Origin: Longimicrobium sp.
GTDB lineage: Bacteria; Gemmatimonadota; Gemmatimonadetes; Longimicrobiales; Longimicrobiaceae
Assembly: GCA_036377595.1 (NCBI GenBank)
Contig: DASUYB010000094.1
Span: 62,001-126,000 of the forward strand
DNA length: 64,000 nucleotides
Direction: 5' to 3'
Numbering within the stretch: the first letter of the stretch is position 1; every line of letters begins with the position of its first letter. A program made the position numbers and the translations under genes. Positions 2,754-37,098 of the stretch are shown here, piece after piece. The notes under the pieces are model-generated. The model saw only the letters and a list, made by a program, of their open reading frames with translations, had not been told where the DNA came from and did not search any database.

Positions 2754-2872
2754 CACGGGTGTGAACACATCCATGCTCCAGCCACAGCGGCATTCTGGCG
2801 CATCCGCCCGATGCGCGAAAGTGCGGGCGTGCAACGCACTCCCGCACTTCCGCTCTCACACGGCGTGCCGTA

Positions 2873-3007
2873 TCACCGCTGGTCGAGGAGCAGCTCCTCG
2901 TAGATATCGTCCTCGCTGCTGCTCCAGATCTTGTCGAGCGCCGACTGCGTTGCCGCGAGCCAGAACGCTCGTTCCTCGTCGGTCTCCATCGCCTGCGGCA
3001 CGTCCAT
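2873..3007 (-). CDS. Small acidic hypothetical protein (44 aa), coupled to odhB
   Basis: A complete 44-codon frame starts with ATG 3007, only 3 nt after the odhB stop codon, and ends at TGA 2873. The product begins 'MDVPQAMETD' and contains 'AFWLAATQSALDKIW' followed by 'EDDIYEELL'. The W-L-A-A-x-Q-x-x-L-x-x-I-W and E-D-D-I-Y pattern resembles small antitoxin-like proteins that usually precede PemK/MazF genes. No toxin gene follows here; the palindromic repeat does. Spacing implies translational coupling to odhB. It could be an orphan antitoxin remnant or an unrelated small protein. Confidence 0.55.
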   Translation of the reverse strand: MDVPQAMETDEERAFWLAATQSALDKIWSSSEDDIYEELLLDQR

Positions 3008-3010
3008 CGA

Positions 3011-4333
3011 TCACCCCTCGATCAGCATCGCGAGCGGGTCTTCGAGGAGCTGCTTGACCGTCACCAGGAAGCGCACGGCCTCGCTGCCGTCCACGATGCG
3101 GTGGTCGTAGGTGAGGGCGACGTACATGATGGGGCGGATCGTGATCTCGCCATTCACCACCACCGGGCGCTCGACGATGTTGTGCATCCCCAGGATGCCG
3201 ACCTGCGGGGGGTTCAGGATCGGCGTCGACAGCATCGACCCGAAGATCCCGCCGTTGGTGATGGTGAAGGTGCCGCCCTGCAGCTCCTCCAGCGTCAGCT
3301 TGCCGTCGCGCGCCTTCTTCCCCAGCTCGCCGATCTCCCGCTCCAGCTCGGCGAAGGACTTCCGGTCGGCGTTGCGGACGACGGGGACGACCAGCCCCTC
3401 CTCGGCCCCGACGGCGATGCCGATGTCGTAGTACTGCTTGAGGACGATCTCGTCGCCCTGGATCTCGGCGTTCAGCCGCGGGAAGGTTTTCAGCGCGCCG
3501 ATCACCGCCTTGGTGAAGAACGACATGAAGCCGAGCTTCACCCCGTGCTTCTTGACGAACTCGTCCTGGCGGCGCTTGCGCAGCTCCATCACCGCGCTGA
3601 GATCGACCTCGTTGAAGGTCGTCAGGCTCGCCGTCGTCTGCTGCGCCTCCACCAGCCGCCGCGCGATGGTCTGCCGCCGGCGAGTCATCCGCTGGCGAAT
3701 CTCCGCCCGGTCGCCGTTCACCGACGGCGCGGCGGACGGAGCCGTCGCCGCCGCGGGCGCGGAGGTCGCGGGGGACGACGTCGCCGGCGCGGCGGCCGGT
3801 GCCTCGCGCTGCGGCGCGCCGGCGGCGGCGCGGCCGTCCTCGATGCGCTTGAGGACGTCTTCCTTGGTGACGCGCCCGTTGGGGCCGGAGCCCTGGACCG
3901 TCGCCAGGTCGATCCCGTGCTCGGCGGCGATGGCGCGCGCCGCGGGCGAGGTCGGCGCATCCGCGGAGCCGGCGGCGGGCGTCTCGGCCGTCACCGTCGC
4001 GGTGGCGGCGGACGCAGTGGGCGCGGCGGCGCCTTCCTTCTCCTCGTAGCGCGCGGTGGCGGCGCGGCCCTCCTCCGCGGCGGCGGGGGCGGCGGCGCCG
4101 GCCTCCATCTCCGCCAGCAGCTCGTTCACGCCGACGGTGTCGCCCTCGTTCTTGCGGATGGCGCCCAGCGTGCCGTCGGCGGGGGCGGCCACCTCGACCG
4201 TGATCTTGTCGGTCTCGAGCTCCACCAGCACCTCGTCCTTGCGGACGGCGTCGCCAGCCTTCTTCGACCAGCGGCCGACGGTGGCCTCGACGACGGACTC
4301 GCCCAGCGGCGGAACGCGAATCTCAACCGGCAT
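3011..4333 (-). CDS. odhB: Dihydrolipoyl succinyltransferase, 2-oxoglutarate dehydrogenase E2
   Basis: This 440-residue protein transfers the succinyl group from E1 to CoA through a lipoyl arm. Domains in order: an N-terminal lipoyl domain with the modified lysine in '[11 protein letters not shown]' (about residues 38-48); a long Ala/Pro linker; a peripheral-subunit binding domain ('[14 protein letters not shown]', about 130-165); a second Ala/Pro linker; and a catalytic domain ending in '[13 protein letters not shown]', which holds the active-site His. I chose ATG 4333 because it gives the canonical '[13 protein letters not shown]' start; upstream residues are repeat-derived. It follows sucA on the same strand. 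Confidence 0.93.
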
Positions 4334-32114: not shown

Positions 32115-32375
32115 ATGAAAAAGCTGAGGCTGGACGCCGAGTCGCTGGCGGTGGAAACGTTCGAAGCGGCGTCGGCGCTCCTTTCGCGCGCCACCGTGCG
32201 CGCGGCGCAGGACGCGTTCGGCGTGGTGGTGGCCGGCACGCTGGCGGTGGACGGCACCGTGTGCGACCCCGGCACCGACACCTGCCCCACCAACCCGACC
32301 TGCCCCGGCCAGTTCACCTGCGATCCGTCGTGCGGGAAGATCTGCACGCCGACGTGCCCGCCGCAGCCGGAGTGA
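32115..32375 (+). CDS. Cys-rich RiPP-precursor-like peptide 1 (pinensin-type leader)
   Basis: An 86-residue peptide. The leader 'MKKLRLDAESLAVETF' carries the K-x-L-x-L-x(4)-L-x-V-x-(S/T)-F motif shared with the other peptides in this region and, from memory, with pinensin-family lanthipeptide precursors. A second shared motif, D-G-T-V, precedes the core. The C-terminal 37 residues hold seven Cys, mostly as T-C or C-P pairs ('GTDTCPTNPTCPGQFTC'). AGGAGG at 32103-32108 supports ATG 32115. T-C pairs are possible substrates for lanthionine formation, but no modifying enzyme is nearby, so the chemistry is inference. Confidence 0.75.
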   Translation: MKKLRLDAESLAVETFEAASALLSRATVRAAQDAFGVVVAGTLAVDGTVCDPGTDTCPTNPTCPGQFTCDPSCGKICTPTCPPQPE

Positions 32376-32411
32376 CCGGCCGCTGAACCTTCCACCGACA
32401 GGGAGGCGGAG

Positions 32412-32566
32412 ATGGAGAAGATCAGGCTGGTCTCGACCAGCTCGAGGTGGAGTCGTTCGACGCGGAGGGCGGCGTGGTCGCCCAGGAGCGGCCGACCAAC
32501 AGCGAGCCGTCGCTCTGCCGCACCTGCGAGGGCGACCGCACCTGCTTCACCATCAACTGCTGCTGA
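32412..32566 (+). pseudogene. Cys-rich RiPP-precursor-like peptide 2, frameshifted
   Basis: ATG 32412, preceded by GGGAGG, encodes 'MEKIRLV' in one frame. The rest of the expected peptide, 'LDQLEVESFDAEGGVVAQE' and then a Cys-rich core ending 'CFTINCC', continues in another frame from 32432 to the stop at 32564-32566. One missing base near 32429-32432 would restore a leader with the same spacing as peptides 3 and 4. No start codon exists in the downstream frame back to its stop at 32384. It is either a real frameshift, a programmed one or an assembly error. Confidence 0.7.
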
Positions 32567-32575
32567 GGAGGGCCC

Positions 32576-32785
32576 GTGGCCAAGCTGACCCTGAAGGTCG
32601 AGAAGCTCGCGGTGGAGTCGTTCGAGACGCTCGACGGCGCGCGCGGCGCGGGAACGGTGCGCGCGCACGAGGACAGAACGGAATGGCAGGATTCCACCTG
32701 CGCCACGGATTGTTTTCCCGGCAGCGACTGGGACTCCTGTCTCTCATGCAACGACCCCACGTGCCGGTCGGTGGACTGCCCCTGA
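32576..32785 (+). CDS. Cys-rich RiPP-precursor-like peptide 3, GTG start
   Basis: A 69-residue peptide initiated at GTG 32576, with the ribosome-binding site GAGGAGG (32565-32571) inside the stop of peptide 2. The leader 'MAKLTLKVEKLAVESFET' shows the shared motif; 'GAGTVRAHED' is the pre-core G-T-V motif. The core has six Cys, arranged as S-T-C, T-D-C, D-S-C, L-S-C, P-T-C and V-D-C. It has more Asp than the other cores. Spacing of 9 nt from peptide 2 implies one transcript. Confidence 0.75.
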   Translation: MAKLTLKVEKLAVESFETLDGARGAGTVRAHEDRTEWQDSTCATDCFPGSDWDSCLSCNDPTCRSVDCP

Positions 32786-32810
32786 CGTCGGTTTCCACCA
32801 GCGAAGACGC

Positions 32811-32842
32811 GGACGGGCGGGAGATGTGGCTCCCGCCCGTCC
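32811..32842 (+). other. Hairpin between peptides 3 and 4
   Basis: A 13-bp perfect stem GGACGGGCGGGAG (32811-32823) / CTCCCGCCCGTCC (32830-32842) with a 6-nt loop and no T-run. It could stabilise or separate transcripts of peptides 1-3 and 4. Confidence 0.6.
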
Positions 32843-32874
32843 ATTGAGACCCCGTTGAACCTCAGGAGCCTGCC

Positions 32875-33066
32875 ATGAAGAAGCTGAGCCTGCGGATCGA
32901 GGAGCTGAGCGTGGACTCGTTCGCCGTCCCCGCAAACCACGAGACGGAGGGAACGGTGCGGGGCTACGACAGCGCGAGCGAGGACGTTACCTGTTCTCCG
33001 ACCTCGCCCTACATCTGCACGAAGCTGTGCACGCGGTACATCAGCTGCGGCGCGTACACCTGCTAG
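32875..33066 (+). CDS. Cys-rich RiPP-precursor-like peptide 4
   Basis: A 63-residue peptide. The leader 'MKKLSLRIEELSVDSFAV' fits the shared motif, and the pre-core motif is 'EGTVRGYD'. The core holds five Cys in 'VTCSPTSPYICTKLCTRYISC' plus a C-terminal 'YTC', with Ser/Thr next to each. AGGAG at 32864-32868 supports ATG 32875. It is the last gene of the first block and is followed by the bidirectional terminator shared with argH. Confidence 0.75.
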   Translation: MKKLSLRIEELSVDSFAVPANHETEGTVRGYDSASEDVTCSPTSPYICTKLCTRYISCGAYTC

Positions 33067-33085
33067 TCTCGGGTGGGATGATAAA

Positions 33086-33124
33086 AGAGCGGGAGCCGCG
33101 GACACGGACCGCGGCTCCCGCTCT
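33086..33124. terminator. Bidirectional terminator between peptide 4 and argH
   Basis: A perfect 16-bp stem: AGAGCGGGAGCCGCGG (33086-33101) / CCGCGGCTCCCGCTCT (33109-33124) with a 7-nt loop. On the minus strand it is followed by TTTTAT, a good T-run for argH; on the plus strand the tail is weaker. Confidence 0.85.
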
Positions 33125-33144
33125 CGTTCCGTATCGCAGCGATG

Positions 33145-34566
33145 CTACAGCACCGCGCGAAGCCCGGTGATCTGCTCGGCGACGGCCTCGGGCGCGGTGC
33201 CGCCGATGCCGGCGCGGGCGGACAGCGCCTCCTCGGCCGAGAAGAGCGCGTGGAAGTCCGCGCCCTCGAACTCCGGCGACAGGTGCGTGAAGAAGCGCGC
33301 ATCCAGCTCGTCGAGCCCGCACCCCAGCTCCTCGGCCGCGCGGACCAGGCGGCCGACGATGCCGTGCGCCTCGCGGAAGGGGACGCCGCGCTTCACCAGG
33401 AAGTCGGCGAGATCCGTGGCCAGCATGCCGGCGTCGACGGCATCGCGGCAGCGCCCGGCGTCGATCTCCATCGTCCGCACGCTGCCGGCGACTGCGGGAA
33501 GGAGCGACTCCAGGGTGTCGAAGGCGTCGAAGAGCGCCGCCTTGTCTTCCTGCAGGTCCTTGTTGTAGCCCGACGGCAGCCCCTTCAGCGTCGCCAGGAT
33601 CCCCGTCAGCCCGCCGATCAGCCGGCCGGCCTTGCCGCGCGCCAGCTCCATCGCGTCGGGATTGCGCTTCTGCGGCATCAGCGACGAGCCGGTGCTGAAG
33701 CGGTCCGACATCTTCACGAACCCCCACTCGGCGCTGGAGAAGAGGACCAGGTCCTCCGCCAGCCGTGAGAGGTGCACCCCCACCATCGCCGCTACGAACA
33801 GGAGCTCGGCCGTCCAGTCCCGATCCGCCACCGCGTCCATCGAGTTGGGGGAGACGGAATGGAAGCCCAGCGTCTCCTTCAGCAGCACGCGGTCGACCGG
33901 GAACGGGCACCCGGCGATCGCCCCCGAGCCCAGCGGGAGCACGGCCACCCGCTCGCGTGCCTGCGCCAGCCGCTCGCGGTCGCGCGCGAGGGGCCATGCG
34001 TGCGAAAGGAGCCAGTGCGCGGCGGAGACCGGCTGCGCGCGCTGGAGATGGGTGTAGCTGGGCATCACCGTGTCGCGGTGCGCCTCGGCCTGCTCCAGCA
34101 ACGCGCGCTGCACGTCGCGCAGGAGCGTGTCGAGCCGCGAGACGGCGGCGCACGCCCAGAGGCGCGAATCCGTGGCCACCTGGTCGTTGCGCGAGCGACC
34201 CGTATGGAGCTTTCCCGCGACGTCGCCCGCCTCCTCGTACAGCAGGCGCTCGACGAGGGAGTGGATGTCCTCGTCGGGCGCGCCGGCCCACTCCGCCTCG
34301 GTCCACTGCTCCAGCCGCGCGCCCACGCGGTCGAGCCCGGCGTTCAGCGCCAGCCACTCGTCGTGCGAGATGACGCCGGCGTCGAAGATGGCCTCGGCCC
34401 ACGCCTGGCTCCCGGCCACGTCCTCGCGCCAGAGGCGGTGGTCCACCGGAAGCGAGCGGTTCAGCCGATCCATCTCCACCGACGGCTCGGCGGAGAAGCG
34501 GCCGCCCCACAGGCGCGCGGTCGAAGCCTCGGGGCCCGTCTCGAGCTGGAGCGCGGCATCGGTCAT
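33145..34566 (-). CDS. argH: Argininosuccinate lyase
   Basis: A 473-residue enzyme splitting argininosuccinate into arginine and fumarate, the last step of arginine synthesis. N-terminal 'LWGGRFSAEPS' (about 15-25), 'HTGRSRNDQVATDSRL' (about 112-127), 'TYTHLQRAQP'-type segment (here S-Y-T-H-L-Q-R-A-Q-P) and the superfamily signature 'GSSLMPQKRNPDAMEL' (about 285-300) are present. ATG 34566 is chosen over 34620 because the extra 18 residues are unlike the family. It sits on the opposite strand between the two Cys-rich peptide blocks, a disruption of the usual argG-argH adjacency. Confidence 0.95.
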   Translation of the reverse strand: MTDAALQLETGPEASTARLWGGRFSAEPSVEMDRLNRSLPVDHRLWREDVAGSQAWAEAIFDAGVISHDEWLALNAGLDRVGARLEQWTEAEWAGAPDEDIHSLVERLLYEEAGDVAGKLHTGRSRNDQVATDSRLWACAAVSRLDTLLRDVQRALLEQAEAHRDTVMPSYTHLQRAQPVSAAHWLLSHAWPLARDRERLAQARERVAVLPLGSGAIAGCPFPVDRVLLKETLGFHSVSPNSMDAVADRDWTAELLFVAAMVGVHLSRLAEDLVLFSSAEWGFVKMSDRFSTGSSLMPQKRNPDAMELARGKAGRLIGGLTGILATLKGLPSGYNKDLQEDKAALFDAFDTLESLLPAVAGSVRTMEIDAGRCRDAVDAGMLATDLADFLVKRGVPFREAHGIVGRLVRAAEELGCGLDELDARFFTHLSPEFEGADFHALFSAEEALSARAGIGGTAPEAVAEQITGLRAVL

Positions 34567-34628
34567 GGCATCCTTCCCTTCGGATACGCGTCGTGCGGCC
34601 GGCGGGGAAAAGTGGCCCATCCGGCGAG

Positions 34629-34657
34629 TTGTGCATTTCCAGACACTTAGTTACGAT
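34629..34657 (+). promoter_or_regulatory. Candidate promoter of the second Cys-rich peptide block
   Basis: TTGTGC (34629-34634), a 17-nt spacer and TACGAT (34652-34657). The -10 overlaps GTTACG (34650-34655), as in front of the first block; the start codon follows 46 nt after the -10. This 137-nt gap to argH must also hold the argH promoter on the other strand. Confidence 0.5.
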
Positions 34658-34702
34658 CACTTCCGTCCCGCAGCCCATCCGTCCATCCCCTCAGGAGAGC
34701 CG

Positions 34703-34909
34703 ATGCAGAAGCTCAACCTCGACGGGCTGAAGGTCGACAGCTTCGCCACCACCAGCGAGGCCGCCGGCATCCGCGGCACCGTGGCGGCGCGCGAGAACAC
34801 CAATCCTCCCACGTGCCCGGACAGCTGGGGCGGCACCTGCTGGCTCACCTGCTGGGACACCTGCCCGTGCACCGATTTCGTCGACTGCTCCGAGGTGGAA
34901 GCCCCATGA
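34703..34909 (+). CDS. Cys-rich RiPP-precursor-like peptide 5
   Basis: A 68-residue peptide. The leader 'MQKLNLDGLKVDSFATT' is the compact form of the motif, two residues shorter than in block 1. The pre-core motif is 'IRGTVAARE'. The core contains 'CPDSWGGTCWLTCWDTCPC', nearly identical to peptide 6, with T-C at three consecutive positions four residues apart. AGGAG at 34693-34697 supports ATG 34703. The stop overlaps the next start (ATGA), so peptides 5 and 6 are translationally coupled. Confidence 0.8.
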   Translation: MQKLNLDGLKVDSFATTSEAAGIRGTVAARENTNPPTCPDSWGGTCWLTCWDTCPCTDFVDCSEVEAP

Positions 34910-35121
34910 AGAAGCTGAGGCTGGACCACTTGGCGGTGGAGAGCTTCGCCACGATCGCACGGGCCGGCGGCATCCGCGGCACGGTCGTCGGCCGCGTGGA
35001 CACGAGCCCCGCCGCCTGCCCGAACACGGATCCGCCGTACTGCCCCGACAGCTGGGGCGGGACCTGCTGGATCAGCTGCTGGGACACCTGCCCGTGCACC
35101 GGCGGTCCCGACTGCGCCTGA
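34906..35121 (+). CDS. Cys-rich RiPP-precursor-like peptide 6
   Basis: A 71-residue peptide overlapping the stop of peptide 5 by 4 nt. The leader is 'MKKLRLDHLAVESFATI' and the pre-core 'IRGTVVGRVD'. The core has two Cys in 'CPNTDPPYC', then 'CPDSWGGTCWISCWDTCPC', which differs from peptide 5 in only two positions of this stretch. It ends 'GGPDCA'. The near-identity with peptide 5 indicates a recent tandem duplication. Confidence 0.8.
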   Translation: MKKLRLDHLAVESFATIARAGGIRGTVVGRVDTSPAACPNTDPPYCPDSWGGTCWISCWDTCPCTGGPDCA

Positions 35122-35144
35122 CACCGCCTCCCACGGAGGAAACG

Positions 35145-35312
35145 ATGCGCAAGCTCCGCCTGGACGCGCTCGAGATCACCAGCTTCGCCACCACCACCCG
35201 GTCCATCCCCGCAAGGACCACCGGCAGCCCCGCATGTCCCATCAGCTACGGCGGCACCTGCTGGGTCACCTGCTGGGAGACCTGCTACTGCGAGACCGTG
35301 TTCGAGTGCTGA
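35145..35312 (+). CDS. Cys-rich RiPP-precursor-like peptide 7
   Basis: A 55-residue peptide. Leader 'MRKLRLDALEITSFATT'; the G-T-V pre-core motif is lost or replaced by 'IPARTTG', so the leader-to-core distance is shorter. Core 'CPISYGGTCWVTCWETCYC' keeps the G-G-T-C-W-x-T-C-W-x-T-C pattern. GGAGGA at 35135-35140 precedes the ATG. A hairpin (GGAGTGCG 35319-35326 / CGCACTCC 35338-35345) lies between this gene and peptide 8. Confidence 0.8.
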   Translation: MRKLRLDALEITSFATTTRSIPARTTGSPACPISYGGTCWVTCWETCYCETVFEC

Positions 35313-35384
35313 GCACGGGGAGTGCGCCCGATCGGGTCGCACTCCGCGCCGCTCCTCCACCACGAGCAACCAGGAGAGGCCCCG

Positions 35385-35582
35385 ATGAAGAAGCTCACCC
35401 TCGATGCGCTGGCCGTGACCAGCTTCGCGACCACGGCCGCGGGACCCGGCATGCGCGGGACCGTGAACGGCCGGGAAGCCGCAGCGGCCACGCTGAGCAA
35501 CTGTCCCGCGAGTTGGAACGGCACCTGTTACATCACCTGCGGGAACACCTGCCCGTGCACGACCGATCCTCGCTGCCCCTAA
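35385..35582 (+). CDS. Cys-rich RiPP-precursor-like peptide 8
   Basis: A 65-residue peptide. Leader 'MKKLTLDALAVTSFATT', pre-core 'MRGTVNGRE', core 'CPASWNGTCYITCGNTCPC' followed by 'TTDPRCP'. The core varies at the aromatic and Gly positions (N-G-T-C-Y, C-G-N-T-C) while keeping the T-C spacing, as expected if the spacing is what matters. A ribosome-binding site AGGAGAGG lies at 35372-35379. Frames upstream of ATG 35385 do not match the family. Confidence 0.8.
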   Translation: MKKLTLDALAVTSFATTAAGPGMRGTVNGREAAAATLSNCPASWNGTCYITCGNTCPCTTDPRCP

Positions 35583-35630
35583 TCGCACCGGCGCGATCAG
35601 TGCCTCCCCCAAACCGAAAGGAACAGACCG

Positions 35631-35777
35631 ATGCCGCTCAAGCTCGAAACGCTCGTGGTCGAGTCGTTCGCCACCGCGCCGTCCCTGCAGTCGCTGCAAG
35701 TGACCCTCGACACGGTGAGGCAGTGCATCGCCTCGCACCGCATCACCTGCGAGATCAGCTGCAACGGGACCTGCTGA
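35631..35777 (+). CDS. Cys-rich RiPP-precursor-like peptide 9, shortest and most divergent
   Basis: A 48-residue peptide. The leader 'MPLKLETLVVESFATA' keeps L-x-x-L-x-V-E-S-F; the G-T-V motif is absent. The core is reduced to 'CIASHRITCEISCNGTC', with three of the T-C/S-C pairs retained at 4-residue spacing and no Trp. A ribosome-binding site AAAGGAA is at 35617-35623. It is too short for routine gene callers and may be missed in annotations. Confidence 0.7.
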   Translation: MPLKLETLVVESFATAPSLQSLQVTLDTVRQCIASHRITCEISCNGTC

Positions 35778-35862: not shown

Positions 35863-37098
35863 TCAGTCCGCCGCCAGGTCGGTGACCAGCGCGGGGGTGC
35901 GCTCCTGCTCCTTCAGCGCGCCGACCCGCATCGGCAGGGCGAAGAGGCGGATGAAGCCCGCCGCATCGGCCTGGTCGTAGACGTCGTCCTCGCCGAAGGT
36001 GACGAAGCGCTCGTCGTAAAGCGAGAAGGGGCTGGTCCGCCCGGCGATGCTGGAGGTGCCGCGGTACAGCTTCAGCCGCACGTCGCCGGTCACGCGCTGC
36101 TGGGTGACGTCGACCAGCGCGTCCATCGCCTGCCGCTCCGTGGTCCACCAGCGCCCTTCGTAGACGAGATCGGCGTAGCGCGGCGCGATGGCGTCCTTCA
36201 GCGCCAGCGTGCGGCGGTCCATCACCAGCTGCTCGAGCTCGCTGTGCGCCTGGTAGAGGAGGGAGCCGCCGGGCGTCTCGTAGATCCCGCGCGACTTCAT
36301 CCCCACCATGCGGTCCTCCACCAGGTCCACGCGGCCGACGCCGTGCAGCCCGCCGATCTCGTTCAGCCGCTCCAGCAGCGCCACCGGGGACAGCGCCTCG
36401 CCGTCCACCGCGACCGGGAAGCCGTGCTCGAAGGTGATGGTGACGTACTCCGGCCGGGCCGGCGCGTCCCACGGCGCCTTGGTGAGGAGGAAGAGGTCCT
36501 CGGTCGGCTCGTAGGCCGGATCCTCCAGCGGCCCGCCCTCGTGCGACACGTGCCAGATGTTGCGGTCGCGCGAGTAGATCTTCTCCTTCGTGGCCGCGAC
36601 GGGAACGTTATGCGCCGCCGCGTAGTCGAGCGCGTCCTCGCGGGAGCGGATGTCCCACTCGCGCCAGGGGGCGATGACCTTCATCTCCGGCGCCAGCGAG
36701 GCGTAGGTGAGCTCGAAGCGCACCTGGTCGTTCCCCTTCCCCGTGCAGCCGTGCGCGAGGATGGAGGAGCCGATCAGCCTGGCGACCTCGACCTGGCGGC
36801 GGGCGATGATCGGCCGCGCCATCGAGGTGCCCAGCAGGTACTTGCGCCCGTAGATGGCCCCGGCGCGCAGCGTGGGCCACACGAACTCGGTGAGGAAGGC
36901 CTCGCGCAGGTCCTCGACGTAGCAGGCCTTCGCGCCGCTGGCGAGGGCCTTCGCCTCGAGCCCGGCCAGCTCGTCGCCCTGCCCCACGTCGGCGGCGACG
37001 CAGACGACCTCGGCGCCGTAGTTCTCCTTCAGCCAGGGGACGATGATCGAGGTGTCGAGCCCGCCCGAGTAGGCCAGGACGATGGGGTTGTTGTTCAT
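35863..37098 (-). CDS. argG: Argininosuccinate synthase
   Basis: A 411-residue ATP-dependent enzyme joining citrulline and aspartate. The PP-loop '[16 protein letters not shown]' (about residues 8-23) and '[13 protein letters not shown]' (about 117-129) are the ATP-binding and citrulline-binding signatures; '[17 protein letters not shown]' and '[14 protein letters not shown]' are also typical. Length is normal. It faces the second peptide block convergently and lies downstream of the argA-like gene on the same strand, separated from it by a hairpin repeat. Confidence 0.95.

Follow-up and report, generated by a model that had tools for sequence, protein, structure and literature searches.

Positions 32,115 to 35,777 of a 64-kb window of a Longimicrobium genome (the whole stretch of 64,000 nucleotides analysed, from contig DASUYB010000094.1) hold nine small Cys-rich genes in two blocks around a gene that we take to be argH (argininosuccinate lyase); a presumed argG (argininosuccinate synthase) follows. 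Judged from sequence comparisons, it is probable, at roughly 80%, that the nine genes encode class I lanthipeptide precursors (LanA) with a pinensin-type leader and are part of a larger, scattered set of 206 or more precursors sharing one modification hub on contig C103. The locus comprises the following features, each precursor being an open reading frame (ORF) unless stated otherwise:

32115..32375, plus strand: precursor 1, 86 aa; leader KLRLDAESLAVETF, ATV, long Cys/Thr/Pro core; genome-wide profile E 7e-19
32412..32566, plus strand: precursor 2, frameshifted, read from the sequence; MEKIRL, with DQLEVESF in another frame; core SLCRTCEGDRTCFTINCC; leader pattern match at C94:94441
32576..32785, plus strand: precursor 3, 69 aa; GTG start; GTV; profile E 6e-20
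32875..33066, plus strand: precursor 4, 63 aa; GTV; profile E 8e-17
33145..34620, minus strand: argH, 1,476 bases; host gene separating the two blocks, outside the system
34628..34658, plus strand: promoter-like stretch GTTGTGCATTTCC...GTTACGATC upstream of block 2, conserved in the sister genome G160; putative function
34703..34909, plus strand: precursor 5, 68 aa; GTV; core ...CPDSWGGTCWLTCWDTCPCTDFVDCSEVEAP; profile E 4e-32; NF038180 21.3 bits
34906..35121, plus strand: precursor 6, 71 aa; profile match; GTV; ortholog in G160 at L161:9418-9615
35145..35312, plus strand: precursor 7, 55 aa; profile match
35385..35582, plus strand: precursor 8, 65 aa; GTV; NF038180 25 bits against a cut-off of 24
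35631..35777, plus strand: precursor 9, 48 aa; core CIASHRITCEISCNGTC, identical in G160 (L161:9655-9822)
35863..37098, minus strand: argG, an ORF that comes after argH and block 2

The leader K-L-x-L-(2 or 4)-L-x-V-x-S/T-F recurs, slightly varied, in all nine genes, as an earlier sequence-only reading of this DNA had described. The intact copies were recovered at E 4e-32 to 8e-17 by a profile built from these eight peptides themselves. That reading had counted nine plus-strand genes of 48-86 codons. Eight of them are intact ORFs at the positions above, and the ninth (32412-32566) is frameshifted in its leader, which is split over two frames (MEKIRL..., then ...DQLEVESFDAEGGVVAQERP...CRTCEGDRTCFTINCC) by a stretch of 5 bases in place of the expected 3 or 6, owing either to a sequencing error in this assembly or to decay of a dying copy. 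The pre-core GTV expected in most genes was exact in five of the nine, replaced by ATV in the gene at 32115 and absent from three.

Searches against Pfam returned no family that recognises any window precursor. The NCBIfam model NF038180 (leader_pinensin) matched the gene at 35385-35582 with 25.0 bits (cut-off 24) and four further window genes below the cut-off (12.3-21.3 bits), and three of the eight intact genes gave no match. The resemblance to pinensin-type leaders, which had been proposed earlier, was thus recovered with one gene above the curated cut-off, and the comparison supports the window genes as precursors of ribosomally synthesised and post-translationally modified peptides (RiPPs) with a leader of this type.

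Run against the same genome, the profile of the eight window peptides gave at least 149 matches (149 of the best 150 candidates), and the DNA pattern L-x-V-[EDQNKH]-[ST]-F matched 147 times, compared with twice for the backwards pattern. A leader hidden Markov model (HMM; threshold E<=1e-3), applied to 1.4 Mb of stretches around matching places, identified 206 precursor genes on 55 contigs. These fall into 105 groups, made up of 67 lone genes and arrays of up to 13, and the same DNA read backwards gave zero genes at this threshold (best E 0.15), so that the recurrence of the leader exceeds chance by far. Because 133 of the 147 pattern matches lie within the sampled stretches, the census is nearly complete, and we estimate the genome total at 206 to about 230. 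The earlier reading thus underestimated the scale, the nine local genes being among at least 206. Almost every copy is an intact ORF that encodes at least two Cys and follows a GGAGG-like ribosome site. A search upstream of the arrays for a common promoter motif yielded just the strong ribosome site and, here and there, AT-rich sequence resembling a promoter, and a plasmid search with a precursor gave no match. Integron-like cassettes were considered and rejected, since intergenic gaps are short or negative and the copies dispersed. A diverged sub-family forms a tandem sub-array of very short precursors at C29:11368-12903, several of which begin with MLNPEDLxVESF without the KLxL half-leader and have cores of the form CCTGC(V/T)SGCGINPT(A)GGC.

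Ten precursors with the same leader (C103:95694-100563) adjoin a split LanB and a LanC on contig C103. The gene order there is LanB glutamylation domain (PF04738), separate elimination domain (PF14028), LanC (PF05147), the ten precursors, an ABC exporter, an HlyD-like protein and an S8 subtilisin-like protease; the exporter, the HlyD-like protein and the protease were identified by inspection of their sequences. The enzymes scored 140.9 bits for Lant_dehydr_N, 146.3 bits for Lant_dehydr_C and 173 bits for LANC_like. In the LanC we read the motifs AWCHGGPG, SLCHG and GYAHG, which, by analogy with NisC, are presumably the zinc-ligand motifs. A second complete LanB/LanC/S8/ABC set lies on C98, and at both loci PF04738 and PF14028, hallmarks of class I, reside on adjacent separate genes. 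The proposed check for modifying enzymes thus located two loci, each with a split LanB, a LanC, an exporter and an S8 protease, and at one of them ten same-leader precursors lie alongside.

The C103 LanC carries a C-terminal extension of about 240 residues. A model of the extension, folded from the homolog L145 (LanB_C 56% identical), found its best structural match in the TglHI complex entry 8hci (E 1.4e-6), in a chain that we take to be TglI from its size, and also matched the RiPP recognition element (RRE) proteins PqqD, TbiB1 and lasso synthetase B1 (target-normalised TM 0.67-0.75). Because the predicted fold matches TglI, PqqD, TbiB1 and lasso synthetase B1, the extension is likely an RRE-like leader-reading domain fused to the cyclase.

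Other lanthipeptide-type loci were noted in the same genome. The C98 set has its own divergent precursors, with (Ser/Thr-x-Cys)n cores and leaders that end in RTFTPT and have no GTV. One such ladder core, of up to about 15 repeats (GDCSNCSGCTGCSNCSDC...), is encoded at L008:13824-14096 (C98:18824-19096), and a precursor of the same ladder type occurs in another species, G162 (L174:13999-14241); a core of this kind would yield minimal lanthionine rings linked in a chain. Contig C145 (L005, C145:62836 on; about 2760-3200) carries a class III/IV-like synthetase with kinase-like and LanC-like parts, followed by its own unrelated precursors, which are near-identical to one another (M..FDPF.ENVLDLQSFDEADATAAECLSIASCVSVPSC...), and looks like an ordinary class III cluster. 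L045 (C1:12835-14748) encodes one more LanB_N-like protein, the third and a separate one, about 950 aa long, with no PF14028 match nearby. A search for LanM (DUF4135) gave no match in the genome, a weak negative, and the absence of LanM is unproven because the DUF4135 control likewise matched in none of its 14 genomes.

Across the 206 precursors the leaders conform to the consensus K-L-x-L-D-[LV]-[DE]-x-L-x-V-[ED]-[ST]-F, followed 9-10 residues later in 176 of them by G-T-V-x-[AG]-[HN], beyond which conservation is at background. Cores were delimited by the GTV motif in these 176 precursors, and all 176 are distinct. Cys makes up 14.8% of core residues versus 0.1% of leader residues, and Lys 0.8% versus 7.9%. 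The median core holds 6 Cys and 8 Ser/Thr, with Ser/Thr at least as numerous as Cys in 171 of 176. Ser/Thr precedes Cys directly (position -1) in 42% of cases versus 19% in shuffles (z 23.5), in agreement with the diverse Cys-rich cores with Cys beside Thr or Ser described from the window alone. In addition, Ser/Thr is enriched at -5 (z 16) and +3 (z 11) of Cys, and Cys pairs with a spacing of 4 are over-represented (z 8.6); the core grammar is TCxxTC, for example GTCWLTCWDTCPC.

The count of the leader pattern is at background (0-12) in 150 Gemmatimonadota genomes except this genome (147) and its congener G032 (34). Within the family, six of 21 genomes exceed 30 matches (147, 133, 128, 52, 42 and 34), and all six have a LanB_C of the C103 type (52-81% identity). 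This type is present in eight of the 21 genomes, and high counts were observed in six of these eight versus none of the 13 others (hypergeometric p about 5e-4, a value that treats related genomes as independent, which relatives are not). Profile counts in genomes with a C103-type hub were at least 150 in G160, 145 in G163, 85 in G032, 75 in G150, 50 in G156, 17 in G168 and 11 in G164; those without it gave 1 in G162, which has a C98-type hub only, and 0 in G161 and G052, both without LanB. As had been asked of a genuine leader family, members were found in other genomes, namely in Longimicrobiaceae-like relatives and beside homologous LanBs in two Acidobacteriota genomes, in Fulvivirga (Bacteroidota) and in an Ignavibacteria genome. 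Because totals outside the family are just 1-11, the big expansion is confined to Longimicrobiaceae among the genomes examined.

Two other explanations concern the enzymes and the chemistry. The precursors could be RiPP precursors whose groups are served by different enzymes, such as the C98 hub or azoline or radical S-adenosylmethionine thioether chemistry, with no single promiscuous hub; the second LanB/LanC/S8/ABC set with its own precursors speaks for this, and the Thr-Cys adjacency of the cores would also fit azol(in)e chemistry. We consider such a division of labour unlikely, as the C98 precursors differ in leader end, GTV and core, G162 with its C98-type hub has a single leader match and a (S/T-x-C)n precursor beside that hub, and G160 and G163, with LanB_C of the C103 type only, hold at least 150 and 145 precursors. 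Small secreted Cys-rich peptides, disulfide-bonded or metal-binding, in which the N terminus is an export or targeting signal and LanB/LanC are incidental, would account for the six or more Cys in many cores. This explanation appears highly improbable, given that the N-terminal motif is a pinensin-like lanthipeptide leader, that ten copies adjoin a split LanB/LanC and the leader lies beside LanBs in three other phyla, that copy number tracks hub type across the family, and that Ser/Thr numbers equal or exceed those of Cys in nearly every core.

argH has one match, at 71-90% identity, in each of nine same-genus genomes. argG and argH lie side by side in eight of ten same-genus genomes, with about 70-280 bp and nothing else between them, and precursors are found at this position only in this genome (five genes, 1,242 bp) and in G160 (two genes), on the strand opposite to argG and argH. 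The argG-argH precursor block is thus a lineage-specific insertion. Orthologous cores have been kept, CIASHRITCEISCNGTC being identical at argG and HSCLRTACCPDTFQPGCTG at the hub. The pooled ratio of nonsynonymous to synonymous divergence (dN/dS) was 0.40 for leaders and 0.44 for cores of orthologs, and 0.57 for recent paralogs, a value biased low by picking pairs at >=60% identity. Orthologous cores are under purifying selection, and positive selection in the cores was rejected, since values of about 0.4-0.6 show the opposite. Synonymous divergence is lower in cores than in leaders, which may reflect Cys codon bias. Between the window gene at 35631-35777 and L161:9655-9822 of G160, the core DNA is nearly identical (synonymous divergence pS 0.07) and the leader far diverged (pS 0.63), a possible case of core swapping between leaders.

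The frameshift in precursor 2 and the rapid turnover of arrays, with no precursors at argH in G163, might suggest that most copies are decaying, functionless duplicates left by amplification. We hold this to be very unlikely in view of the dN/dS values, the identity of some cores between species and the intact frames, ribosome sites and Cys content of nearly all copies. Rather, arrays come and go fast and individual products are retained by selection.

Several observations weigh against the main reading, class I lanthipeptide precursors that share one hub. The C98 set coexists with the C103 hub and might take a share of the work, and pools are modest, at 11 and 17 precursors, in two of the genomes that possess a C103-type hub, which indicates that the hub permits expansion and does not force it. 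Ser/Thr is under-represented at positions -2 to -4 of Cys, which many known lanthionine partners occupy. Of the eight intact window genes, a single one exceeds the NF038180 cut-off, and at E<1e-3 that model matches just 8 of the 48 precursors sampled, so that the precursor family is a divergent one. The model of the LanC extension has a predicted local distance difference test score (pLDDT) of 66, and the genome is a 7.2-Mb draft of 208 contigs with an estimated contamination of 4.8%.

For class I lanthipeptide precursors drawing on the C103 hub, we infer modification, export and activity from sequence and propose the following route. Each precursor would be expressed from its own local array, and its leader K-L-x-L-D-[LV]-D-x-L-x-V-E-S-F with G-T-V-x-[AG]-[HN] would dock on the hub, probably through the RRE of the split LanB and/or the LanC extension. 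LanB_N would then glutamylate core Ser/Thr using Glu-tRNA, LanB_C would eliminate glutamate to give dehydroalanine or dehydrobutyrine (Dha/Dhb), and (methyl)lanthionine rings would form as LanC adds the Cys thiols of the core. Secretion of the product would fall to the ABC exporter of the hub together with its HlyD-like adaptor, and the S8 protease would cut off the leader near the GTV motif. The biological role is probably antagonism or signalling between bacteria. Because the leader is constant and the cores are free to vary, duplication or insertion could add products without new enzymes, in the manner of ProcM and the prochlorosins.

The system resembles the class I pinensins of Chitinophaga pinensis in its leader family, with one window gene over the curated cut-off, and in its split LanB with a separate elimination domain, as found in pinensin (PMC7268733). 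A further likeness is that the LanC is akin to the cyclase domains of LanM-type enzymes; among NCBIfam models TIGR03897 fits it best here, with a score under the cut-off of that model. It differs in that precursors are spread over 55 contigs instead of one cluster, cores are unrelated, and leaders are divergent with an added GTV-x-[AG] pre-core motif. The comparison of cyclases covered the LanC of this genome, with its extra RRE-like domain. The predicted fold of this extension, here fused to a class I lanthipeptide cyclase, is that of the leader-binding domains TglI, PqqD and TbiB1.

The classic example of a single, promiscuous lanthipeptide enzyme acting on many precursors is that of the prochlorosins. 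The prochlorosin systems of marine picocyanobacteria (ProcM/SyncM) are alike in having one enzyme set, genome-dispersed precursors in single and tandem genes, a constant leader and a hypervariable Cys core. They use a class II LanM, a Nif11 leader and GG cleavage, whereas this genome has a class I split LanB/LanC and a pinensin-like leader. Here, too, many distant precursors (206) share a leader, the genome has one C103-type hub, and precursor count is associated with that hub type across genomes; from the shared leader and this association we infer that the hub accepts many different cores. The best reading by analogy is a system that would work like prochlorosin biosynthesis without belonging to that family, having no Nif11 leader and no LanM match (with the weak control noted above). 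At least 206 precursors are more than twice the 83 of Synechococcus MIT9509, the prochlorosin-type maximum per genome and the largest found in open literature (PMC10783134). In Longimicrobium terrae, probably of the same bacterial family, antiSMASH listed lanthipeptide clusters, and no dispersed repertoire was reported there (PMC7291104); only clusters found by antiSMASH are listed. In the open-access literature, subscription papers being outside the search, we found no account of a dispersed class I or Gemmatimonadota precursor repertoire.

The balance tips slightly towards Longimicrobiaceae holding the largest known natural combinatorial lanthipeptide repertoire, with about 200 predicted products per genome, a single class I hub, a cyclase with its own RRE and a TCxxTC ring topology undescribed so far. 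This would be an independent example, larger than the prochlorosins and built on LanB/LanC, the other main enzyme class, from a soil phylum whose natural products are almost entirely uncharacterised, and one ring-forming enzyme set could yield hundreds of different cyclic peptides. Mining near synthetases or with the current leader model would miss most of this repertoire, and the leader-hub pair may serve for building cyclic peptide libraries. Within the family, the comparative series of copy numbers (0, 11, 17, 50, 75, 85 and at least 145) lets one ask what drives expansion.

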